A stretch of 16,647 nucleotides of DNA from assembly GCA_030595925.1 (NCBI GenBank), contig JAUVLC010000053.1:1-16647 (forward strand), in the 5' to 3' direction. Within the stretch, counting starts at the first letter, position 1. Every line of letters starts with the position of its first letter. This document shows positions 422 through 11,081 of this stretch, one piece after another. The stretch comes from Clostridia bacterium. Lineage in GTDB: Bacteria; CBDUZB01; JAGLHV01. The translations under genes were made by a program, and so were the position numbers. The notes beneath the pieces were generated by a model that saw only the letters and a list, made by a program, of their open reading frames with translations, had not been told where the DNA came from and did no database searches.

Positions 422-746
422 TGTTTAAAACAGGAAACTTTTCTCTATCTATTTTCCAACAAAGTTTTGCCATAAGGGTAGGTAAAATTGAGGATGTAGA
501 TGGATTTTAGATGTCGTTCAATGTGTTCTTTGACCCGATTGTTTGTAAACTTCTTGTGTAATTACCCTATAATCTAAAGCCTCCTTTTTTGGCTTTAGAT
601 TATAGGCGATGTCCCCTATTTTTCCTCGACCAAGCCGGTCATTTATCGTATGGGTGCGGCTACTTTGCAATCGATGTATTCCCCGGAAATGACTGCCCAC
701 AGTGCCGGGTTTATCATTGAAGTAGTTGAATAAAATTAAAATTTAC
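422..746. other. Gene-poor interval with a large inverted repeat
   Basis: I see no convincing complete gene here. The main structure is the perfect inverted repeat at 566-606, described separately. A short open stretch at 599-733 on the plus strand would read like protein (it includes a YRMGAATLQSMYSPEMTAHS segment), but it has no ribosome-binding site and is interrupted by a stop at 596-598. It may be a gene remnant or chance. The promoter of the toxin-antitoxin pair starts at 747. Confidence 0.5.
566..606. repeat. Perfect 16-bp inverted repeat with 9-nt loop
   Basis: CCTATAATCTAAAGCC at 566-581 is exactly complementary to GGCTTTAGATTATAGG at 591-606; the loop TCCTTTTTT is at 582-590. No T-run follows the stem on either strand, so it does not look like an ordinary intrinsic terminator. 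It could be a cruciform or hairpin, a mini-element remnant, or a transcript-stabilising structure. Confidence 0.85.
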
Positions 747-775
747 TTGACATTACGTACATAATATGGTACGCT
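747..775 (+). promoter_or_regulatory. Promoter of the YefM-YoeB-type operon with palindromic operator
   Basis: TTGACA at 747-752 is followed 17 nt later by TACGCT at 770-775, a weak -10. A 5-bp inverted repeat CGTAC-N8-GTACG (756-760 and 769-773) sits between and over the -10 box. A palindrome at this place is what antitoxin autoregulation would need: YefM/Phd antitoxins repress their own operons through short palindromes. The ribosome-binding site AGGAGGT (782-788) is strong. Confidence 0.55.
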
Positions 776-795
776 TTAAATAGGAGGTAATTAAA

Positions 796-1038
796 ATGAC
801 AGTACTTACAGTTAGTAAAGCAAGAGCAAATTTATATAAGTTGTTGGATAAAGTAGCTGAAGCGCATAAGCCAATACAAATTATCGGAAAAAGACATAAT
901 GCTGTTTTAATTGCGGAAGAGGATTGGCTTGCAATCAATGAAACAGTATATCTGCTTTCCATTCCGGGAATGAGAAAATCTATTCTCAAAGGATTAAAAA
1001 CTCCTCTTAAGAAATGCGATAAAAAGTTAAAATGGTAA
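796..1038 (+). CDS. Phd/YefM-family antitoxin
   Basis: This 80-residue protein matches the Phd/YefM antitoxin family in size and start: MTVLTVSKARANLYKLLDKV, then an IQIIGKRHNAVLIAEEDW block typical of the N-terminal DNA-binding dimer domain. The C-terminal part (from about residue 50) is basic and would be the flexible segment that wraps the toxin. In this family the antitoxin neutralises a YoeB-like mRNA interferase and represses the operon, alone or in complex with toxin. The start is fixed by AGGAGGT seven bases upstream. Its stop overlaps the toxin start by 7 nt (ATGGTAA at 1032-1038), which implies translational coupling. The family call is clear; whether it is nearer YefM, Axe or another branch is not. 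Confidence 0.9.
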   Translation: MTVLTVSKARANLYKLLDKVAEAHKPIQIIGKRHNAVLIAEEDWLAINETVYLLSIPGMRKSILKGLKTPLKKCDKKLKW

Positions 1039-1298
1039 AGTGGAAACTGGTTTATACAAAACAAGCACAAAAAGATGCAAAAAAACTTTCTTTTGCAGGA
1101 TTACGTCAAAAAGCAGAAACTCTTCTTGAAATCTTAGAAAAAAACCCTTTTCAAGTTCCCCCTCCGTTAGAAAAATTAGTAGGTGATCTCGAAGGAGCTT
1201 ATTCCCGGAGAATAAATATTCAACATCGACTGATATATCAAGTTATAAAGCAATATAAAAAGATAAAAATTATTCGTATGTGGACACATTATGAATAA
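1032..1298 (+). CDS. Txe/YoeB-family toxin (ribosome-dependent mRNA interferase)
   Basis: This 88-residue basic protein follows the antitoxin with a 7-nt overlap. It has the Txe/YoeB layout: an N-terminal helix pair rich in Lys, then NPFQVPPPLEKL, then GAYSRRINIQHRLIYQV, and the end RMWTHYE. By alignment from memory with E. coli YoeB, catalytic Glu46, Arg65 and His83-Tyr84 correspond to Glu47, Arg66 and His86-Tyr87 here, so the toxin looks intact. Family members cleave mRNA in the ribosomal A site when the labile antitoxin is degraded, arresting translation. Length is normal for the family (about 84-90). The pair probably works as a stress, stabilisation or anti-phage module; its place in an accessory region fits stabilisation, which is inference. 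Confidence 0.92.
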   Translation: MVKWKLVYTKQAQKDAKKLSFAGLRQKAETLLEILEKNPFQVPPPLEKLVGDLEGAYSRRINIQHRLIYQVIKQYKKIKIIRMWTHYE

Positions 1299-1430
1299 TC
1301 AGTTTTAGTTTATGTCTTAGAGGACATACTACCCTGATTTTGATATAGTCCGTATAAAAACAAATAGATTGACAGATATTTTGCCTTATTAGAGAGAATA
1401 TTTGTTTTTTTATTGCATAATATGCAAAAA

Positions 1431-1490
1431 TATAGTAACTTAAAAGCATAGCGAAAAATACAATAAAATAATAGCTTTGTCTATTAATTG
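1431..1490 (+). promoter_or_regulatory. Three-block leader motif, copy A
   Basis: The first block is AAAAATATAGTAAC (1427-1440 region, TATAGTAA from 1431). AATAAAATA follows 31 nt after the first TATAG base, and ATTAATTG at offset 52. The same three blocks at almost the same spacing occur at 6401 and 7008. Here it ends 36 nt before the start of the gene at 1526. TATAGT could be a -10 box, but no good -35 lies at the right distance. The role is unknown. Confidence 0.45.
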
Positions 1491-1525
1491 TTAGCTCAAA
1501 AATATAATATAATTGGAAAATTTTA

Positions 1526-2212
1526 ATGACAGGTTTTAGGGTTGACTTTTCAATATTATTAAAACACGTATCTGATTATTGGGCTAAACATATAAGGCAA
1601 CGGGATGAGCTAATAAGGAAATTATTTAACCTCGTTATTGATATTTCAGTTTGTGGTTATCATAAACAAGAATCACAAGCGGAAAATAAATACAAAATTA
1701 TTTTTTCACCTAATTATTATGGATATGGAAATCCACCTCAATATAATGCTTCTCAAATTGTTTCTCGCATTGTTGAAATTTTAAAAGAACATGGGTGGGA
1801 AGTTCCAATAATTGCTAATATTCTCATAAGATTTAAGTTGTTTCTTGAAGATTACAAATGGGAAGAAAGCAAAGACGGAGATAAATTTATTATATTTACC
1901 ATAAAAAAAGATGAAGGTATTGAGGACTTTAGAAAAAAATATCAATATTTTATAGATCAGATGCAGAATTTTATTTATTCGGAATGGTCTCATAAAATTA
2001 CGATATTCAAGAAAATCATATGTTTTACAGTTTTTAGCAGTATTATCACATTAGTAATATTATTTTTATTATTAATAATTTTTATTCCCGATTTATTCAA
2101 ATTCATCATTCAAAATTATGTAGATGGAATTTTTGTTTGGATAATCCTTTTAATTAGTTTAGCGGTGGGGATTTCTATAACATATTTTATTTGTAAAAAA
2201 CAAAAAAAATAA
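1526..2212 (+). CDS. Unknown protein with two C-terminal membrane helices
   Basis: I do not recognise this 228-residue protein. Residues 1 to about 150 are soluble and mixed alpha/beta in character, starting with a charged helix-rich stretch (SDYWAKHIRQRDELIRKLF). A middle part contains SPNYYGYGNPPQYNASQIV, HGWEVPI, and an aromatic-rich DGDKFIIFTIKK strand. From about residue 158 come two strongly hydrophobic helices separated by a short loop (around PDLFKFIIQNYVDGIF), then a basic tail CKKQKK. This predicts an inner-membrane anchor with both ends cytoplasmic. The ribosome-binding site is weak (GGAAAA near 1514). Base composition is even more AT-rich than the neighbours. It lies 60 nt before the DuOB-DUF488 operon on the same strand and could be its membrane partner, but nothing in the sequence proves that. 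Confidence 0.7.
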   Translation: MTGFRVDFSILLKHVSDYWAKHIRQRDELIRKLFNLVIDISVCGYHKQESQAENKYKIIFSPNYYGYGNPPQYNASQIVSRIVEILKEHGWEVPIIANILIRFKLFLEDYKWEESKDGDKFIIFTIKKDEGIEDFRKKYQYFIDQMQNFIYSEWSHKITIFKKIICFTVFSSIITLVILFLLLIIFIPDLFKFIIQNYVDGIFVWIILLISLAVGISITYFICKKQKK

Positions 2213-2272
2213 GCATAACAAATTGATGAAACAAAATTGTATTTAGTTTTGCTATTAAATTAAGAGGGATAT

Positions 2273-2962
2273 ATGGATCACAGTATAAAAACAATTGTAT
2301 GCCTTGCAAATTCCAGGAAAAGTTCTGGCAGATGTATTGCTGGAAAGCTTTTGGATTCCGATAAAATAATTCAAGAATGGATTCGACCGGTTAGTGCACG
2401 CCCAAACGAAGAAATCTCAGAAGATGAAAGACGTTACTCAAATGGGGAAATGCCCCACGTTTTAGACATCATTGAAGTTCCCGTTAAGGAAAAAAAATCA
2501 ACATTGTTTCAGAAAGAAAATTATTTAATTCACGATACATATTACTGGAAAAAGCTTGGAGGGTATAGCAAATCCTTATCAATGATAATAGATTCTCCAA
2601 AGCTTTTATGGAATAAGGATTGCAGCAGTTATTACGGAAAAAATGATAGAGTTTCCAAGTCGTCTGCTGGCTATTTCAATGAATCTCTTTATCTTATAAA
2701 GCCTTTAAATCTTGAAGTGACTGTTAAAATTGAAGGCGAAGAATTTAATAATCCGAAAAGAAAGATTCGTGCAAAATTCAGATATAATAAAATTGATTAC
2801 ATTTTTTTGGTTACCGATCCTAAAATTGAAAAAATGTTTTTGAAACGTGAAAATGGCGAATATCATATAACAAAAGATAATGTATTTTTATGTGTAAGTA
2901 TGGGTTTACCATATCAGGATGGCTATTGCTATAAATTTGTCGCGTCTATAATAGGGATATGA
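2273..2962 (+). CDS. Dual-OB (DuOB)-like domain protein
   Basis: This 229-residue protein resembles the family annotated as dual OB-containing domain proteins. The signs are CLANSRKSSGRCIAG at residues 10-24, WIRPVS at 36-41 followed by EEISEDERRY, HVLDIIEVP at 62-70, QKENYLI at 80-86, a PKRKIRAKFR strand at 161-170, TDP at 181-183, and the end SMGLPYQDGYCYK at 209-221. The match is from memory of the family pattern, not a search. OB folds usually bind nucleic acid or nucleotides, and the family has been discussed in prokaryotic conflict systems. The molecular function is not established. AGAGGG at 2263-2268 serves as ribosome-binding site. The stop overlaps the next start as ATGA, so it is co-translated with the DUF488 genes. 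It could supply target recognition for them; that is inference. Confidence 0.75.
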   Translation: MDHSIKTIVCLANSRKSSGRCIAGKLLDSDKIIQEWIRPVSARPNEEISEDERRYSNGEMPHVLDIIEVPVKEKKSTLFQKENYLIHDTYYWKKLGGYSKSLSMIIDSPKLLWNKDCSSYYGKNDRVSKSSAGYFNESLYLIKPLNLEVTVKIEGEEFNNPKRKIRAKFRYNKIDYIFLVTDPKIEKMFLKRENGEYHITKDNVFLCVSMGLPYQDGYCYKFVASIIGI

Positions 2963-3561
2963 TTATGAAAAAAACATTGTATACAATCGGATACTCACAC
3001 TTTTCTTTATCTGAATTTATTAACGTTTTGAAGATGCACAATGTTAATGCTATCTCAGATGTTAGATCCGTTCCTTACAGCAAATATAAACCAGACTTTA
3101 ATAAAAATGTTTTGGAAAGGGAATTAAAAGAACAAGGAATTGAATATGTATTTATGGGAGATTACTGTGGTGCAAAGATAAAAGATCCTAATTGTTATGT
3201 TGGACAAAGAGTTGATTATTCTCTTGTTGCAAATTCAGATGTGTTTAAGATTGGTATTCAAAGAATTATTAAAGGTCTGGAAAAATTTTCTATAGCACTT
3301 ATGTGTGCGGAAAAAGATCCAATAAGATGTCATAGGATGATTCTTGTTTCAAAAAATATCAAAATAGAACATTCAGATATTTTCCATATTGGGTCAAAGG
3401 GCTATTTAGAGGAGAATCTTTTTGCAGAGAAAAGATTAATGACTTTGTTTGGGTTGGATGAACCAAATTTTCTTTTTTCTGAAAAAGAACGTGTGGAAGA
3501 AGCTTATAAAAAACAAGCTATGAATATTTCGTTTGAAAAAGAAAAGATAGGAATCTTGTAA
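2959..3561 (+). CDS. DUF488 family protein (first of two)
   Basis: This 200-residue protein has the DUF488 hallmarks: YTIGYS at residues 8-13, DVRSVPYS at 34-41, then CAE at 116-118 and CHR at 124-126, the paired C-x-E...C-H-R motif of the family. The biochemical activity of DUF488 is not established to my knowledge; the conserved Cys, Glu, His and Arg suggest an active or metal site. It has a C-terminal extension of about 60 residues beyond the CHR motif, charged and probably helical. The start at 2959 overlaps the upstream stop by 4 nt; an alternative ATG at 2965 would give a protein starting MKKTLYTIGYS, the usual family start, so the true start may be two codons later. One base separates its stop from the next gene. 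Confidence 0.9.
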   Translation: MIMKKTLYTIGYSHFSLSEFINVLKMHNVNAISDVRSVPYSKYKPDFNKNVLERELKEQGIEYVFMGDYCGAKIKDPNCYVGQRVDYSLVANSDVFKIGIQRIIKGLEKFSIALMCAEKDPIRCHRMILVSKNIKIEHSDIFHIGSKGYLEENLFAEKRLMTLFGLDEPNFLFSEKERVEEAYKKQAMNISFEKEKIGIL

Positions 3562-3562
3562 T

Positions 3563-4012
3563 ATGCTGGATATTATAATATATACAATTGGATTTACAAA
3601 AAAATCGGCACAAGATTTTTTCACAACGATACGAAAAAATAAAATTGATAAGATGATAGATGTTAGATTAAATAATGTTTCTCAACTTGCAGGTTTTGCA
3701 AAAAAAAGAGACATGGAATATTTTCTTAAAGAGATTTGTAACTGTAAATATGAGCATTTGCCCATGCTGGCGCCAACGAAAAAAATATTAGATGGATACA
3801 AAAGAAATCAAATTACGTGGGATGAATATGAAAGGATGTTTTCTGAATTATTGAAAAAAAGATCCGGTATAATTGAGAAGTACTTTTTGTCAACGAAAGA
3901 AAGAAATATTTGTTTGCTATGTAGTGAACCTACTGCAGAAAAATGTCACAGGCGATTGGTTGCCGGGTTTATACAAAGACAGTTAAAAGAAATTAGAGTA
4001 ATACATTTATAA
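3563..4012 (+). CDS. DUF488 family protein (second, shorter)
   Basis: This 149-residue paralogue has the same frame of motifs: YTIGFT at residues 7-12, DVRLNN at 33-38, CSE at 120-122 and CHR at 128-130. It lacks the long C-terminal extension of its neighbour and differs in the middle, with LAGFAKKRDMEYFL and HLPMLAPTKKILDGYK where the first copy has the YSKYKP and GAKIKDPNCY blocks. The two are therefore different DUF488 subtypes, not a recent duplication, and their one-base spacing suggests subunits of one complex. The last base of the stop codon is also the first base of the attC-like site, the classic position of an integron cassette recombination site. Function is unknown. Confidence 0.88.
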   Translation: MLDIIIYTIGFTKKSAQDFFTTIRKNKIDKMIDVRLNNVSQLAGFAKKRDMEYFLKEICNCKYEHLPMLAPTKKILDGYKRNQITWDEYERMFSELLKKRSGIIEKYFLSTKERNICLLCSEPTAEKCHRRLVAGFIQRQLKEIRVIHL

Positions 4013-4085
4013 TTTAACAAATCGCTGCAGTGAACTTTTTCTGCGGCTTTTCCATTCCAAAAACTGCTGATTTTGTTCGTTAGGC
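4012..4085 (+). repeat. attC-like integron recombination site
   Basis: The 74-nt stretch begins with ATTTAAC (4012-4018), matching RYYYAAC, and ends with GTTAGGC (4079-4085), matching GTTRRRY. The flanks of a single-strand hairpin are visible: AACAAATC and GCAGT on the left against ACTGC and GATTTTGTT on the right, then TTTTT against AAAAA, with small bulges (for example GAAC at 4032-4035) and an unpaired centre. That is the imperfect, bulged palindrome recognised by integron integrases, and the size is within the known range. It sits exactly at the end of the DUF488 operon. No integrase and no second convincing attC is in the window, so it could be an isolated or relic site. Confidence 0.55.
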
Positions 4086-4120
4086 ATAATAAATAATTAA
4101 CAAAAGGGAGGAAGAAAAAA

Positions 4121-4771
4121 ATGGAAGAAACAAAAATCAACATGCCGTTATTAGGAGATGAATTTCCGGAACTGAAGGTTCAAACGACACACGGGCCAAT
4201 GAATATTCCGGGTGATTTGAAAGGGAAATGGTTTGTGCTGTTTAGTCATCCTGCGGATTTTACTCCGGTTTGCACAACAGAATTTGTTGCATTTCAAAAG
4301 AGATACGAGGAATTTAATAAGCTTAAGTGTCAATTGATTGGAATGTCCATTGATCAGGTATTTTCTCATATCAAATGGGTTCAATGGATAAAAGAAAAAC
4401 TTGATGTTGAGATTAAATTTCCGATTGTTGCGGCAAATGATTCCGTTGCCTTAAAACTTGGCATGTTGCACCCGGGGAAAGGGACAAACACTGTCCGGGC
4501 AGTATTTATCGTTGATTCGGAGAGTAAGGTTCGTTTGATAATGTACTATCCGCAAGAAGTCGGCCGAAATATGGATGAAGTTGTTCGAGCAGTTAAAGCA
4601 CTTCAAATATCAGATAAACAAGGCGCTATGCCGGCAGGATGGCCGAATAATGAATTGATAGGAGACCGTATTATTATTCCTCCGGCAAAAGATGAACAAA
4701 CGGCCAAAAAAAGGCTGAAGGAATTTGAAGGATATGATTGGTGGTTTTGTCATAAACCGCTTGAAAAATAA
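4121..4771 (+). CDS. Peroxiredoxin, archaeal-type (Prx6-like, ApTPx-like)
   Basis: This 216-residue thiol peroxidase reduces hydrogen peroxide and alkyl hydroperoxides in the cytoplasm. The active-site block is [13 protein letters not shown] with peroxidatic Cys51, Pro44 and Thr48 in PxxxTxxC, and Arg126 in TVRAVFIVD completing the site. The long C-terminal arm characteristic of this subfamily is present: MPAGWPNN, then IIIPPA, and near the end DWWFC with Cys210, which aligns with resolving Cys213 of Aeropyrum pernix peroxiredoxin. The auxiliary Cys207 of that enzyme is absent. So a two-cysteine mechanism between subunits is likely. Start is set by GGGAGG at 4106-4111. It lies 36 nt after the attC-like site and its codon use is less AT-extreme than the DUF488 genes. 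The family is clear; it was probably acquired from or shared with archaea and anaerobes. Confidence 0.95.
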
Positions 4772-4799
4772 GAATGATTAAGTGCTTCAAAATTTTGTC

Positions 4800-4845
4800 T
4801 TGACAAACAACCGGTAAGTTAGTAATATACTAACATACTGGAGAG
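4800..4845 (+). promoter_or_regulatory. AbiE promoter with long palindromic operator
   Basis: TTGACA (4800-4805), 17-nt spacer, TAATAT (4823-4828): a good sigma-70 promoter. A palindrome covers the -10: GTTAGTA (4818-4824), ATA, TACTAAC (4828-4834), perfect over 7 bp per arm. It extends outward to 4811-4841 with 12 of 14 positions paired. AbiEi antitoxins repress their operon by binding inverted repeats in the promoter, so this is the likely operator. GGAGAG at 4840-4845 is the ribosome-binding site and favours the ATG at 4853 over 4859. Confidence 0.8.
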
Positions 4846-4852
4846 AATAAAA

Positions 4853-5479
4853 ATGTTTATGAATCTAAGGAAATTAGCGTTAACGGAAGAATTTGATTAT
4901 AATCTTATTGTTTGTGCGTTATCGAAATATAAAAATCCTCGAGTTAAAATAAATGATTTGCTTAAAAAAGGTAAAATAATACGGGTAAAGAAAGGGCTTT
5001 ATGTGTTTGGCCATGAGTTGTCCAGGCAGCCATACTCAAGAGAAACATTGGCAAACCTGATTTATGGCCCCTCATATATTTCTCTTGAATATGCACTTTC
5101 TTTTTATGGTTTGATTCCTGAACGGGTGGAGGCCGTTACCAGTGTTACAAATAAGAGGAAGAAACTTTTTACTACGCCTCTCGGAGTTTTTTCATACCGG
5201 CACATAAATCCTGCTCTTTTTTCATATGGCATAACTCTTTACAAAGTAGATAATTTTCATACAATTTTAATTGCTACTAAGGAAAAGGCTCTTAGCGATT
5301 TGATATATTTCTCAGATAAAATTATTGATGAAAATCGGATGGGAAAATACCTTTTTGAAAATTTAAGAATCGAGGAAGGATATCTTAAAAATTTTAATTT
5401 GCAGAAAGTTAAAAAATTAGCCCAATTATATGGGAAAAATGTTAAAATTTTTTATAAATTGCTTAAGGAAATAAAATGA
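4853..5479 (+). CDS. abiEi: AbiEi-family antitoxin of a type IV toxin-antitoxin system
   Basis: This 208-residue protein has an N-terminal winged-helix domain (about residues 1-65, including DLLKKGKIIRVKKGLYVFG) followed by the AbiEi antitoxin domain: PYSRETLANLIYGPSYISLEYAL, the block AVTSVTNKRKKLFTTPLGVFSY, then ATKEKALSDLIYF at about 142-154. In the studied systems the N-terminal part binds the operator and represses the operon, while the C-terminal part counteracts the AbiEii toxin without forming a stable complex. The next gene overlaps by ATGA (5476-5479), as expected for translational coupling. Length is normal for the family. AbiE systems can abort phage infection and stabilise genetic elements. 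Confidence 0.9.
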   Translation: MFMNLRKLALTEEFDYNLIVCALSKYKNPRVKINDLLKKGKIIRVKKGLYVFGHELSRQPYSRETLANLIYGPSYISLEYALSFYGLIPERVEAVTSVTNKRKKLFTTPLGVFSYRHINPALFSYGITLYKVDNFHTILIATKEKALSDLIYFSDKIIDENRMGKYLFENLRIEEGYLKNFNLQKVKKLAQLYGKNVKIFYKLLKEIK

Positions 5480-6342
5480 ATGATGCAATAAAAATAATGT
5501 TATCCCGGTATAATTGCCGGAGTACGGTTGATTATGAAAATGCTTTGAAGGAAATCATTCAGGAAATAGCACTGCTTGGTTTTTGGCGTTCAAAATTTTT
5601 CGAAAAAGCTTCTTTTTACGGAGGATCGGCGTTAAGAATACTATATGGACTTGATCGATTTTCTGAAGACCTGGATTTTTCACTTTTGAATAGAAATAAA
5701 AAATTTTCACTTATGAGTTATTGTAAGGCTATTGAAAATGAACTGAAAAGCTTTGGGTTTTCTGTAACTATTGAAGAAAAGAAAAAAAAAACACAAACGA
5801 ATATTGATTCTGCCTTTATTAAGACAGGGACATTACAAAATATGATTATGATTGATACCCCCAAATCGGCAATTAAAAGAATACATCCGGGAAAAATACT
5901 AAAAATAAAACTAGAAGTTGATGTAAATCCTCCGCAGGGCTTTCGGGTGGAAGCCAAATACCTTTTTCATCCGGTACCTTTTTTAATTAATACCTATGTT
6001 CAGCCGGATCTTTTTGCAGGGAAATTACATGCGGTCTTATGCAGGTCATGGGGGAATAGGGTAAAAGGAAGAGATTGGTATGATATGGTATGGTTTGTGG
6101 GAAGAGATATAGCGGTTCATTTGAAACACCTTGAAAATAGGATGAAACAAACAGGATTTTTAAAGAAGAATGCCTGTTTAAATGAAAAAACACTAAAAGG
6201 AATGCTTTTAGAAAAGATTAAGACTACAGATTTTGATAAGGCTAAAGAAGATGTTGAAAATTTTCTAAAAGATACTTCATCTCTTAAGCTTTGGTCGGGG
6301 GAATATTTTCGGGTTATTTGCGATAAAATTAAAACCGTTTAA
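5476..6342 (+). CDS. abiEii: AbiEii-family nucleotidyltransferase toxin
   Basis: This 288-residue protein is an AbiEii/AbiGii toxin of the polymerase-beta-like nucleotidyltransferase superfamily. The motifs are intact: GGSALR at residues 49-54, the acidic block DRFSEDLDF at 60-68 (two Asp for metal binding), a third acidic strand KLEVDV at 145-150, Lys183 in PDLFAGKLHAV, and KGRDWYD at 197-203. Family members use nucleotides (GTP in early work, tRNA 3' ends for relatives such as MenT) to modify a target and halt growth. It overlaps the antitoxin gene by 4 nt. No frameshift or motif loss is visible, so the toxin is probably functional. The exact substrate here is not known. Confidence 0.92.
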   Translation: MNDAIKIMLSRYNCRSTVDYENALKEIIQEIALLGFWRSKFFEKASFYGGSALRILYGLDRFSEDLDFSLLNRNKKFSLMSYCKAIENELKSFGFSVTIEEKKKKTQTNIDSAFIKTGTLQNMIMIDTPKSAIKRIHPGKILKIKLEVDVNPPQGFRVEAKYLFHPVPFLINTYVQPDLFAGKLHAVLCRSWGNRVKGRDWYDMVWFVGRDIAVHLKHLENRMKQTGFLKKNACLNEKTLKGMLLEKIKTTDFDKAKEDVENFLKDTSSLKLWSGEYFRVICDKIKTV

Positions 6343-6400
6343 TTCGTATTTAAGTTGTAATTTAAAAAAACAGGGGAGTGTCAGAAAAAAACAAATAAAA

Positions 6401-6462
6401 TATAGTAACCTTCACAGTGCAGTAGGGGCCACAATAAAATAAGAATTTCGATTTATTAATTG
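6401..6462 (+). promoter_or_regulatory. Three-block leader motif, copy B
   Basis: TAAAATATAGTAAC ends at 6409 (TATAGTAA from 6401), AATAAAATA is at 6433-6441 (offset 32), and ATTAATTG at 6455-6462 (offset 54). The first block and the third block match copy A exactly over 13 and 8 bases. It lies 33 nt before the start codon at 6496. The spacer between blocks 1 and 2 is more GC-rich here (GTGCAGTAGGGGCCAC). Apart from this motif, nothing else is visible in the 153-nt gap. Confidence 0.45.
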
Positions 6463-7086: not shown

Positions 7087-7386
7087 ATGAAAAGAATTAA
7101 TGTTTTTTTGATGTTATTGGTGCTATCCATAATGGGAATAAACTTATCCCAGGTAAAGGCTAAACCCATTGAACTTGATGGGACACTCGGCGGAGCTTTA
7201 GCCCGGTATTCGTATACTGATGCTTACGGGGAAGCCAATTCCATTACTCCCTTAAATCTTAGTTTGGGAGCAATGGTTCTTTTTTCAGAGGATGGACAGC
7301 TTCTTTTTGATTTTAATACGGAAGAAACCCAGATTGTAACCCCAGTGCGTAATACCCGGATCGGCCTTGGTTTTCAACAAAAATGA
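7087..7386 (+). pseudogene. 5' part of an outer-membrane protein gene interrupted by an insertion sequence
   Basis: The first 99 codons start with a clear signal peptide: KR at residues 3-4, hydrophobic core VFLMLLVLSIMGI, and a likely cleavage near VKAKP (about residue 26). Beta-strand-like alternating segments follow (LGGALARYSYTD, NLSLGAMVLF, GQLLFDFNT, IGLGFQQ). The frame ends at TGA 7384-7386, right at the left hairpin of the inserted element. The 3' part of the same gene resumes after the element at about 7939 in the same frame. AGGGAG at about 7072-7077 is the ribosome-binding site. Alone, this fragment would give a short exported peptide. Whether the intact gene encoded a porin or a channel for the protein next door is not known. 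Confidence 0.8.
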
Positions 7387-7388
7387 AC

Positions 7389-7414
7389 TACCCTGTGGCA
7401 GAGACCACAGGGTA
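7389..7414. repeat. Left subterminal hairpin of the IS (right end relative to tnpA)
   Basis: TACCCTGTGG (7389-7398), loop CAGAGA (7399-7404), CCACAGGGTA (7405-7414): 10 perfect base pairs. Together with the copy at 7916-7937 it brackets the element. Confidence 0.85.
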
Positions 7415-7422
7415 TCAACAAC

Positions 7423-7856
7423 CTAAAACAATCGTAATTGCACTGCTTCTGGCTTATACCCTTGATCCTTAATATATTTTTCAACCACTGTCCAATTCCC
7501 TCTTTCTCCCACTGTCCCTACATAATACCCATCACTCCAAAATTCTCCTCCCCACAATTCTTTCTTCAATTCAGGAAATTTACTGAATAATTCTTTTGCT
7601 GTAATACTTTTGTATATTCTTACCACTTGCCCTACACTATATTTTGGATGGAAATTACATAGCAGGTGAATATGATTCTGATCACATCCTATCTCTTCCA
7701 TCTCTATTTCATTTCATATCTCTCTTCTATTTTTTTGCTCACCTCTTTCATTTCTTTTGTAATTCTATCATCAAGCAATGCTTTACGATATTTTACAGGA
7801 AATACTATGTGGTAATGTACTTCGTATGCACAATGATATGCTTTCTTTACTATCAT
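7423..7856 (-). pseudogene. tnpA: IS200-type transposase TnpA (Y1 HUH), frameshifted
   Basis: On the minus strand ATG at 7856 opens MIVKKAYHCAYEVHYHIVF, then KYRKALLDD and SKKIEERYE, the normal IS200 TnpA N-terminus. The frame hits a stop just after ERYEMK. The C-terminal half continues in another frame from codon ATG at 7701: DQNHIHLLC holds the HUH pair (His-Ile-His, 60 and 62 of the restored protein), WGGEFWSDGYYVGTVG follows, and the catalytic tyrosine is in KYIKDQ (Tyr126, Gln130). The break is a tandem duplication GAAATGAAAT (plus strand 7706-7715). Removing five bases restores an ERYEIEMEEIGCDQ reading and a 142-residue enzyme of normal length. All catalytic residues survive, so the disruption looks recent, unless it is a sequencing error. 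Confidence 0.88.
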
Positions 7857-7869
7857 AATGCCCTATTAT

Positions 7870-7896
7870 ATCTTGAAAACCTACGATTTTCAAGAT
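7870..7896 (-). promoter_or_regulatory. Hairpin in the tnpA leader
   Basis: ATCTTGAAAA (7870-7879) pairs with TTTTCAAGAT (7887-7896), 10 bp with a 7-nt loop. It lies directly upstream of the weak tnpA ribosome-binding site (minus strand, near 7861-7864). In IS200 a leader hairpin hides the start region and keeps transposase levels low, and this may do the same. Confidence 0.5.
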
Positions 7897-7915
7897 ATCC
7901 CTAACAGCAAGGTTA

Positions 7916-7937
7916 CCCTGCGGCAGAGACCGCAGGG
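7916..7937. repeat. Right subterminal hairpin of the IS (left end relative to tnpA)
   Basis: CCCTGCGG (7916-7923), loop CAGAGA (7924-7929), CCGCAGGG (7930-7937). It shares loop and most of the stem with the left hairpin; the stem differs by a compensated T-A to C-G change (GTGG/CCAC versus GCGG/CCGC), so pairing is conserved. Confidence 0.85.
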
Positions 7938-7938
7938 A

Positions 7939-9189
7939 ATAGCAAATTTACTTCCCTGGTTAAACAAGAAAGGAAAAATGAAATTGGGGTATAGGTTTAA
8001 TGGGTATTCCGATAGAATAAATAACAATAGCAGTTTTAGCGGTAATGAATTAAGTTTGATATCAAATTTGTTTATGCGAGAGACAATGAATGTTAAATTT
8101 AAATACATCTTTTTTGATAAATCATTGGATGATGATAATGCGGATTATAATTATCATAATATTGTTTTGGGTACTGATATGAAATTAAGAAATAATCGTG
8201 ATATCCTTAATCTTGGGTTTGATTTATTCAAAAAAGATGCAGGGACTGATGCTGCTTGTTTTGACCGTAATGCGGTCGATGCGCGTTACGTAAGGGAATT
8301 ATCGTTAGGTGATGAAATAGAAAGTGCAATTCATTGGCGGGGAATTAATTATGCTTCTGCAGGGGATGTTTCAGACCGTAATGAAACCGGGTTGGAGTTT
8401 TCTTATTTAAATGGACACAATAAGGGGACTACCCGCTGGGGCGGAGAGTTTTATTTAGAGCGTTATCCGAATGACGAAGGGAGTGAATTTAATCTTTATG
8501 AATTTTTTTGTAAACGCTCTTTGTATTCGAATGAAAAATGGAGGAGGAGAAGTTCTAATCATAGAATTGAATATTTTGATGTTAACCTTTCTGAGGCTAA
8601 TGATTATTTTGAATGGCTCTGGGATATAGATGCTCATTCGTACTTTAAAAAAAACAGAGGTTTTTATCTCAATAATGGACTGAAAGTAAGAAAATGGATG
8701 AATAATAATGATGTTATCAAAAATCAGCATTTTTTGGAGGATATTGTGAGTGTGGGGATGGAGTGGAGCTCTTTATCTCTGGGTTCTTTTTCCATAGGGC
8801 CTGTATTGGGGCATAGATTTTATCAGGATCCCAACGCTAAACGTAATGATGTTTCCAGTGATGACTCACTGTTTAAAAATCCGGCTAATTTTCTTTTATA
8901 CGGGATAAAAATGGTTAGTGGTTTTTCTTTAAAAAAGGGGATGAACATGAATATAGTTTATAATTACCGGATGTTTTTAAATTATATGGGGAAACCGGAG
9001 AAATTTAGCACGGAATTGTCGGATTTATCTTTACAATTGAGGCAGACTATCGCAGATAATTTACAGCTTTCCTGTGATATTGCTTATGCTGACAACGCTA
9101 ATGATAATGGGCCGGTTACAATAGGTGTAAATAAAATGAATGCGCAAATGAAATTGGAATATAAATTTAGTAAATTAATAGGGGAATAA
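7939..9189 (+). pseudogene. 3' part of the interrupted outer-membrane beta-barrel protein gene
   Basis: From about 7939 (ANLLPWLNKKGKMKLGYRF) the frame is open for about 415 codons to the TAA at 9187-9189. The sequence is a chain of amphipathic strands with aromatic residues and Asn/Asp-rich turns (MKLGYRFNGYSDR, MNVKFKYIFFDKSLDD, GLEFSYLNG, WGGEFYLERYP, FSIGPVLGHRFYQD, MNIVYNYRMF, AQMKLEYKFSKL), which is typical of a large outer-membrane beta-barrel. Joined to the 5' part it would make a protein of about 515 residues with a signal peptide. The open frame artificially begins at an ATG within the insertion (7858), but that product has no signal peptide. ATG 7978 is another possible restart. 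The next gene follows after 4 nt, so the two form an operon and the insertion may have polar effects. Confidence 0.8.
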
Positions 9190-9193
9190 AAAA

Positions 9194-10585
9194 ATGAAAT
9201 TAAAAAAAATAATATTAGTTTGTAGTCTGTTAGCTGTTTTAAATCCTTTACAAGGATTTACCAAAAGCAAGGATCCTTTTGGGGTGTTTATGCGAAAGGA
9301 AGCTATGAATAAGCTTAATAAAGAGTCTTATGCTAAATTAATATTCGATTTAAACGAATATTGGATTGAAAAAACAGGTGCGGATATTGCCGGCGATTTT
9401 AAATTGTTTTCTAAGGTGATGGATATTGGTAAGATAAATACGGCACTGGAAGTGGGAGAAAAATTATATGCCGGGGATTATAAAAAAGCAATAGGAGTAG
9501 CAGAACTTGCTGTTTTGTCCGCTTATGTTCCTATAGCAGGACCGGTACTGTTGGCTGGAAAAGGCCTGGATGCCTGGATAAATTCCTTGAGTGCGGATAT
9601 TTTTGCTGCTAATACTAAAAAAATATACAAAGATGTATTTAAAACCCAGCCTGTTTATTTCGAAGAAGAAGGGGTTGATTTGTTTTATAATTATATTCAT
9701 AAATCCGGAAAAGGGAAGTTAAAGGTAAGGGCATGGTTTTATGAATATGCTAAATCAGTAAATAATTCACTTCCTTCGGGATGGCATATACCCTCAAATA
9801 GAGAAAAGACCAGAACTCAGGTAAGAACGGTTGTTAATACCCTGCGGCGTGATATGATTAGTTTAAGAGAGATGGAAAAAAAGAAAGAGGAATTAAAAAA
9901 GCAAAAAAAAATATTAAGAGAACAACTTAATGCACTCAAAAGATTTAATCGTTTTTTGGATTCCAAAGCAACTAGAAACTGGATTTTGGGAAAAGTTAAA
10001 GAAATGGATAAATCCCAGAAATTAATTGATGAAGTACCGCTGATGATTGCATCGATGGAAGAGTCGTTCAATCAATTTATGAAATATTATAGGTATTTTA
10101 TGCAGTTGGTTAATTCGGGACAGGCGGTGGAGATGACCAGAAGAGGTTTGGAGGTAGACGGAGGGCCGGGATGTACCTGCCCGACGTATATAATAGAAAG
10201 AGGACTTTCCGGAAAGGCATCTTATAGTTTAAGTCAGGCAGCATCGATAAAAAGTAAATTTAGGTCATATGAAAGTGATTGGCGGGTGATGCTTAGAAAA
10301 TTAACACAGTTGGCAGAAGACAAAGAGAACTTAAAGGTTAAGGTTTCAACTAAGGATTTAGCAGAAGCACTTGAATCAGCCAATAAAACTAATGAGTTTT
10401 ATTTTACTTCCGGAAATAGAGTGGAGATACTTTATGCTGAAATGCAGACTAAACTTAATGAACTCGACATAGGAAGGAAAGATTCCACCATTAATGCTGA
10501 TACTATGCCGGATGGCCTGGATCCTTTGTTTGTGCCTAATGTAATGAATCTGGATAGTGTTCCTGCTACACAGAGTAGTGAGTAG
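9194..10585 (+). CDS. Exported coiled-coil protein of unknown function
   Basis: I do not recognise this 463-residue protein. An N-terminal signal peptide is clear (KLKK, then IILVCSLLAVL, with cleavage probably after GFTKS near residue 25); the lone Cys10 is in the hydrophobic core and is not a lipobox. A long hydrophobic stretch at about 98-121 (IGVAELAVLSAYVPIAGPVLL) could be a membrane-inserting hairpin or buried helix. Residues 225-250 form a highly charged coiled coil (EMEKKKEELKKQKKILREQL). A second helical part covers 280-310. GGPGCTCPTY at about 323-332 has a Cys-x-Cys pair, the only cysteines in the mature protein. The C-terminus is disordered and acidic. It is 4 nt from the outer-membrane gene, with ribosome-binding site AGGGGA at 9180-9185, and so is a likely partner of that barrel in the envelope. 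Confidence 0.8.
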   Translation: MKLKKIILVCSLLAVLNPLQGFTKSKDPFGVFMRKEAMNKLNKESYAKLIFDLNEYWIEKTGADIAGDFKLFSKVMDIGKINTALEVGEKLYAGDYKKAIGVAELAVLSAYVPIAGPVLLAGKGLDAWINSLSADIFAANTKKIYKDVFKTQPVYFEEEGVDLFYNYIHKSGKGKLKVRAWFYEYAKSVNNSLPSGWHIPSNREKTRTQVRTVVNTLRRDMISLREMEKKKEELKKQKKILREQLNALKRFNRFLDSKATRNWILGKVKEMDKSQKLIDEVPLMIASMEESFNQFMKYYRYFMQLVNSGQAVEMTRRGLEVDGGPGCTCPTYIIERGLSGKASYSLSQAASIKSKFRSYESDWRVMLRKLTQLAEDKENLKVKVSTKDLAEALESANKTNEFYFTSGNRVEILYAEMQTKLNELDIGRKDSTINADTMPDGLDPLFVPNVMNLDSVPATQSSE

Positions 10586-10655
10586 AGAAAACTGTATTAT
10601 TATATCCATTTTTTTTGTGTAAATTTTTTATTAAAAAATTTTATAAAAAAAAATC

Positions 10656-10684
10656 TTGACAAAAATATAATATTTTTCTATAAT
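10656..10684 (+). promoter_or_regulatory. groESL sigma-70 promoter with AT-rich upstream region
   Basis: TTGACA (10656-10661), a 17-nt spacer, and TATAAT (10679-10684) are perfect consensus boxes. The 35 bases upstream are almost only A and T, including an AAATTTTTTA-T-TAAAAAATTT palindrome at 10621-10641, and may act as an UP element. Transcription should start near 10691, inside the CIRCE operator. Confidence 0.92.
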
Positions 10685-10710
10685 TAGCACTCTTGTTACT
10701 TGAGTGCTAA
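10684..10710. promoter_or_regulatory. CIRCE operator (HrcA binding site)
   Basis: TTAGCACTC (10684-10692), N9, GAGTGCTAA (10702-10710) is the exact CIRCE consensus. It overlaps the end of the -10 box and the expected transcription start, so HrcA would block initiation and heat shock would relieve it. The gene for HrcA is not in the window. Confidence 0.97.
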
Positions 10711-10741
10711 TTATTTTTTTTTACACAGGAAGAAAATAAAT

Positions 10742-10816
10742 ATGAACTTAAGTGAAGAATATAAAAATTTATTAAGGAAAGGGGTAAAGAAAAATGAAAG
10801 TAAGACCATTAGGTGA
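10742..10816 (+). CDS. Possible 24-codon leader ORF overlapping groES start
   Basis: Between CIRCE and groES, an ATG at 10742 has its own ribosome-binding site (AGGAAG, 10727-10732, 9 nt spacing). It opens MNLSEEYKNLLRKGVKKNES and four more codons, ending at TGA 10814-10816. This is 23 nt inside groES in a different frame. It could couple translation to groES or be chance. The groES gene has a separate good site (GGGG at 10781-10784) inside this leader. I rate it as possible only. Confidence 0.3.
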   Translation: MNLSEEYKNLLRKGVKKNESKTIR

Positions 10817-11081
10817 CCGGGTTTTAGTAAAACCTTTGGAAACGAAAGAAGTAAAAAAAGGAGGGATTATTATTCCTGATACAGTGAAAGAAAAACCTCA
10901 GGAAGGGGAAGTAATTGCCTTAGGAACAGGGAAGATTACTGATGAAGGTAAAAAAATTCCTATGGAAGTCAAAATAGGAGAAAAAATTTTATTCAAAAAA
11001 TACGGAGGAGATGAAATAAAAATCAGTGATGTGGAACACAAAATTTTAGACAGAGAAGACATTTTAGCGGTAATAGAATAA
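10794..11081 (+). CDS. groES: Co-chaperonin GroES
   Basis: This 95-residue protein is GroES (Hsp10), the heptameric lid of the GroEL folding chamber. It starts MKVRPLGDRVLVKPL, has the mobile loop ETKEVKKGGIIIPDTVKEK (residues 17-35) with the GGIIIPD segment that binds GroEL, then GEVIALGTGK and the closing strand EDILAVIE. Length is standard. The start is set by the purine-rich AAGGAAAGGGG upstream. It is the first gene of a CIRCE-controlled operon with groEL 30 nt downstream. Confidence 0.98.
   Translation: MKVRPLGDRVLVKPLETKEVKKGGIIIPDTVKEKPQEGEVIALGTGKITDEGKKIPMEVKIGEKILFKKYGGDEIKISDVEHKILDREDILAVIE

Follow-up and report, generated by a model that had tools for sequence, protein, structure and literature searches.

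The operon of three co-directional genes at positions 2,273 to 4,012 of the 16,647-nucleotide Clostridia bacterium sequence analysed here (the window) is a further example of PDC-M45, a catalogued but uncharacterised candidate anti-virus system, and not a new discovery. It encodes a dual OB (DuOB) protein and two DUF488 proteins, DUF488-B and DUF488-C. These matched the PADLOC entries PDC-M45A (PDLC04653, E 7.1e-79, 263 bits, residues 4-227 on 3-223/230), PDC-M45B (PDLC04657, E 6.6e-66, 220 bits, 3-195/204), and PDC-M45C (PDLC04658, E 6e-57, 190 bits, 3-143/145), respectively. The proteins are the same three as in the PADLOC-DB 2.0 phage defence candidate, each with a near full-length match, and no essential difference was found; the copy in the window is divergent, its DuOB sharing no more than 51% identity with any of the relatives identified, and it comes from a phylum with few sampled genomes. 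The original prediction had called the system undescribed, a claim that has to be given up since PADLOC-DB (2023) lists exactly this trio as PDC-M45A/B/C, while Pfam has entries for DuOB and for "active/inactive DUF488-N3" and RefSeq names a "dual OB domain-containing protein" beside DUF488 and DUF4326. The remainder of that reading stands: a recurring three-gene unit, likely a multi-subunit machine with a nucleic-acid-binding part and two catalytic-type subunits, in a defence-type setting.

According to a passage in PMC12988326 that cites Payne et al. 2024, PDCs are candidates drawn from "guilt by embedding" within known immune systems, and most of them lack validation (PMC12988326). In the literature searched, we found no paper on PDC-M45 by name and no antiviral assay of it. 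Relatives of the window operon are embedded in this manner, within a BREX operon and beside type I RM genes, whereas the neighbours in the window are toxin-antitoxin pairs instead. The features of this region are as follows.

734..6430: variable segment of about 5.7 kb with the operon, the YoeB pair, the peroxiredoxin and the AbiE pair (congener comparison)
796..1298, + strand: YefM antitoxin and YoeB-type toxin pair, a flanking neighbour outside the system
1526..2212, + strand: membrane protein ORF of 228 aa, family unassigned, just upstream of the operon
2273..2962, + strand: DuOB gene (PDC-M45A), 229 aa, predicted tandem OB folds (ORF call, Pfam, PADLOC, model)
2959..3561, + strand: DUF488-B gene (PDC-M45B), 200 aa, ATGA overlap with DuOB (ORF call, Pfam, PADLOC)
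3563..4012, + strand: DUF488-C gene (PDC-M45C), 149 aa, the subunit almost always retained (ORF call, Pfam, PADLOC, model)
4121-4771: peroxiredoxin, between the operon and the AbiE pair
4853..6342, + strand: AbiEi/AbiEii pair, a flanking neighbour outside the system

The DuOB and DUF488-B genes overlap by 4 nt (ATGA), and DUF488-B and DUF488-C are separated by 1 nt, all on one strand; the ORFs, frames, and gaps agree with those predicted. Pfam assigned DuOB to PF22557 (E 1.3e-66, 225 bits) and both DUF488 proteins to PF04343 (E 1.2e-21 for B and 4.4e-19 for C), with DUF488-C also matching DUF488-N3a at 45 bits. The YoeB-type and AbiE pairs expected on the two sides are both present, but the membrane protein ORF and the peroxiredoxin intervene. 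We considered the peroxiredoxin as a fourth operon gene and rejected it; in one tight Bacteroidales clade, the module likewise has a peroxiredoxin gene 64 bp upstream, but this counterpart is distant (26-33% identity), shorter, and in another position, which points to coincidence.

Comparison with the window's own lineage, for which three genomes of the phylum were covered, revealed that DuOB and DUF488-B are absent in both congeners (2/2). In one of them, the flanks are kept at 82-93% identity, and 734-6430 of the window corresponds to about 1.4 kb with a single AAA_14/DUF4143 ATPase gene. Since this stretch is replaced while the flanks stay, the operon, both toxin-antitoxin pairs, and the peroxiredoxin lie in a variable segment. 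Elsewhere in the window, a stretch at 7383-7944 resembling an IS200/IS605 small transposase, assigned by eye, splits the gene for an outer-membrane-type protein, which is one 512-aa ORF in a congener and is present in the window as halves of 99 aa and 443 aa. The ends of this element recur at two other contig ends.

A recurring linkage of DuOB and DUF488 across genomes had been named in advance as the test of the proposed system, and it was borne out. A scan guided by profiles, run over 84,980 species genomes, yielded 60 DuOB loci from about 15 phyla; the scan patterns were drawn from three relatives, so these loci are a sample and not a census, and the window and seven plasmid loci were left out of the counts of linkage and order. 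A DUF488 gene of the B or C type adjoins DuOB on the same strand in 58/60 loci, usually with gaps of -25 to 75 nt, and the C type does so in 57 of those. The linkage is thus far above chance and near-universal. With A, B, and C standing for DuOB, DUF488-B, and DUF488-C, and D for an mSLOG domain fused to DUF4326 that takes the place of B, the gene orders among the 60 loci were A-B-C (23), B-C-A (27), A-C-D (3), C-A (3), A-B (1), A-C (1), and A alone (2). Both solitary DuOB genes are cyanobacterial, and in Spirulina DUF488-C was found on another contig.

Distances in the A, B, and C trees are correlated (0.78-0.87, against a permutation maximum of 0.19), and therefore the three genes are inherited together. 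In the DuOB tree, phyla are intermingled, and the DuOB of the window groups with that of a gammaproteobacterium (support 99/84). No DuOB was found in phage records and viral contigs. Three loci hold broken copies, with DUF488-C split or truncated or an in-frame stop in DuOB, which suggests gain and decay.

DuOB was found on 20 plasmids, and the module was present in all seven that were examined. On an Agrobacterium plasmid, it lies beside CBASS genes, and on an Allochromatium plasmid beside CRISPR genes (Cas1/Csx). E. coli carries the module in islands at ffs and icd that also contain genes for an integrase or recombinase; a related DUF4326-type gene is found in at least 12 of 5,426 complete E. 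coli genomes, and the whole DuOB-DUF488-DUF4326 unit is present in 3/3 examined. Operons of this kind, from the E. coli ffs and icd islands and from Acinetobacter, Citrobacter, and Salmonella plasmids, have DuOB and DUF488-C in common with the window, adjacent and co-directional, but their third gene is mSLOG-DUF4326 where that of the window is DUF488-B. A DUF2188 gene is a repeated neighbour of the module, on the Agrobacterium plasmid and in two E. coli ffs islands.

Embedding within a known immune system was observed in Pelotomaculum (locus L038, 4479-11479), where a BREX operon runs brxC, pglX, DUF488-N3a, DUF488-C, DuOB, brxHI, pglZ, brxA, co-directional and with small gaps. In another locus (L040), the module is contiguous with type I RM genes and follows them. 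In Bacteroidales, a Pif1-HRDC-HTH helicase gene lies about 54 bp upstream of the module in eight related loci (for example L050, 4243-6855). This Pif1-like helicase has a C-terminal HTH_40, and a similar helicase is the fusion partner of DuOB in one Prevotella locus. In one subclade (three loci), a Schlafen AlbA_2 gene is immediately upstream of DuOB. A comparison of DuOB neighbourhoods with distant regions of the same genomes for enrichment of defence genes gave 74 versus 48 PADLOC families at 1e-15; these are numbers of families and not of genes, and one control region is a type III CRISPR locus, so the enrichment is not clean and we base no claim on it.

The predicted structure of DuOB (pLDDT 95.6) has its best fold matches in RPA (4gop_C, E 5e-4), CST, telomere-end-binding protein alpha (1ph1, Z 8.0), and HIN-200. 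The RPA match covers residues 1-229 (Z 6.2, rmsd 5.5), while most matches span only the first OB fold (OB1, residues 1-100); a viral structure library yielded nothing beyond weak matches such as baculovirus Lef-3. The model thus appears to share its tandem OB arrangement, which is also reflected in the Pfam name dual OB, with RPA, CST, and the telomere-end-binding proteins as its closest folds, but DuOB has no detectable sequence similarity to them and has invariant polar residues of its own. For all three proteins, searches by single sequence or profile gave no convincing relative of solved structure. The invariant residues of DuOB are S14, K16, C21, A23, G24, W36, R38, E82, and K221. The seven from S14 to R38 map to the first three strands of OB1, where, judging from the model, they may form one specific ligand site. 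DuOB is fused to a Pif1 helicase in L066 (Prevotella, 7995-10844), and fusions to C-terminal Myb-like/HTH regions also occur. A DuOB-DapB fusion in one further locus was set aside as a possible assembly or annotation artefact.

Both DUF488 proteins have an intact C-x-E...C-H-R motif with the cysteines at the positions predicted (C116/C124 in B and C120/C128 in C), and the homologues agree: the motif is unbroken in 55/55 of the B type and in 63/65 of the C type, where only two truncated genes deviate, and it is retained in 7/7 mSLOG-DUF4326 proteins. The invariant residues are C116, E118, P121, C124, H125, and R126 in DUF488-B and C120, E122, C128, H129, R130, and R131 in DUF488-C. The predicted structure of DUF488-C (pLDDT 93.0) matched archaeal and human PTP-fold phosphatases (SsoPTP, PRL, KAP), the RapZ C-domain, diphthine synthase, and the CobF/CbiL methylases. 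The scores are weak (Foldseek E 0.01-0.1) and lie at a level that can be unspecific (Z 6.7-9.0, with 6.7-7.4 for PTP, RapZ, and diphthine synthase and 9.0 for CobF). Middling as they are, the predicted matches are the set expected of the rhodanese-phosphatase superfamily, at the level of fold only. A 2023 paper by Burroughs and Aravind, cited in PMC12419801, reportedly unites the PTP, RapZ-C, and diphthine synthase folds in this superfamily, a classification with which the predicted matches of DUF488-C would agree, and is said to predict DNA-end processing in conflict systems. In the model, C120 ends a core strand (115-120) and H129-R130 start a helix (129-140). This predicted layout resembles that of phosphatase loops, with an invariant Cys at the nucleophile position, but the loop is longer: across 50 C sequences, C120 and R130 never vary, and their spacing is C-x9-R, while classical PTPs have C-x5-R. 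The original statement that the activity of DUF488 is unknown therefore holds for experiment but not for prediction, since the fold search leads to PTP phosphatases, RapZ-C, and diphthine synthases.

Building on what is directly supported, namely the operon, its conservation, the predicted folds, its mobility, and its embedding in defence loci, we hypothesize that the trio is a PDC-M45 defence complex in which DuOB would act on invader ssDNA or ends and the DUF488 pair would act through cysteine-dependent phosphate or sugar-phosphate chemistry. We favour this reading, while rating its chances as slightly short of even. DuOB would use its first OB fold to bind invader DNA where single strands or ends are exposed and would present the DNA end to the two DUF488 subunits, C as the core and B. 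These would then remove or transfer phosphate or sugar-phosphate groups at the end, and the altered invader DNA would be blocked in replication, packaging, or repair. We infer DNA ends as the substrate, and likewise the reaction, the formation of a complex, and the antiviral outcome; a DNA substrate is favoured because of the helicase fusions and the embedding in BREX and RM loci. In a bolder form, which we hold only tentatively, this would be a nuclease-free end-processing defence, with tandem OB folds capturing invader DNA ends and two thiol-based phosphatase-fold enzymes capping or stripping them. To our knowledge, such thiol-based capping or stripping of invader DNA ends is a type of reaction that has been demonstrated in no prokaryotic immune system.

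The alternative that survives best, though we consider it unlikely, keeps the same defence role and changes the substrate to a nucleotide signal or an RNA sugar-phosphate end (ADP-ribose-like or cyclic-phosphate), with the enzymes clearing or making such groups and DuOB sensing RNA or a ligand. OB folds bind RNA too, RapZ, whose C-domain is among the fold matches of DUF488-C, is an RNA-binding adaptor, and the invariant S14, K16, C21, W36, R38, E82, and K221 of DuOB suggest a specific pocket more than a general binder of single strands. The exchange of B for mSLOG-DUF4326 in the A-C-D loci favours a nucleotide or RNA-end substrate. These families are linked to ADP-ribose-type nucleotides, so the substrate of the trio may be a nucleotide: DUF4326, for which processing of the terminal phosphates on ADP-ribose derivatives has been proposed, frequently occurs in fusions with SLOG, Macro, or NADAR (PMC9503650). 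Against this, the fusions and partners of DuOB are DNA helicases and HTH-type regions, and the module lies inside BREX and beside type I RM, both of which target DNA.

Three further explanations appear much less probable than a defence complex acting on DNA ends. It is quite improbable that the trio thiolates or redox-senses nucleic acid, with each Cys pair forming a rhodanese-like persulfide or disulfide. The rhodanese-phosphatase superfamily does include rhodaneses, each enzyme has two invariant cysteines in one loop, and an SspH-type gene is among the neighbours; but no sulfur-donor gene recurs beside the module, and the invariant H-R and D-x-R fit phosphate binding. The top fold matches listed for DUF488-C are PTPs, RapZ, and methylases with no rhodaneses, which counts weakly against this chemistry and is compatible with kinship to rhodaneses.

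We likewise see little prospect for a toxin-antitoxin-like or abortive-infection unit, in which one toxic subunit would be restrained by the others. Such a unit would suit a small, tight operon that is also carried on plasmids and that, in the window, has a toxin-antitoxin pair on either side within a variable segment, but all three genes have conserved motifs, the trio is almost always kept together, and the variable order (A-B-C or B-C-A) and the exchange of B for DUF4326 are unusual for a two-part toxin-antitoxin pair. A cellular or plasmid operon for nucleic-acid repair or maintenance, with no role in defence, is very unlikely as well: DUF488 also occurs in ordinary genomes (6/14 controls), and Bacteroidales and cyanobacteria carry the module among ordinary genes, but DuOB was found in 0/14 controls, the module is missing from both congeners, phyla are mixed in the DuOB tree, and the module is embedded in BREX.

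PDC-M45 is thus a catalogued operon with the status of a candidate in the literature searched, and it is an attractive target since the unit is near-universal, mobile, present in E. coli, and embedded in a BREX operon. The predicted DUF488 fold would imply a definite cysteine-based chemistry, and the question at stake is whether bacterial immunity makes use of thiol phosphatase-fold enzymes.
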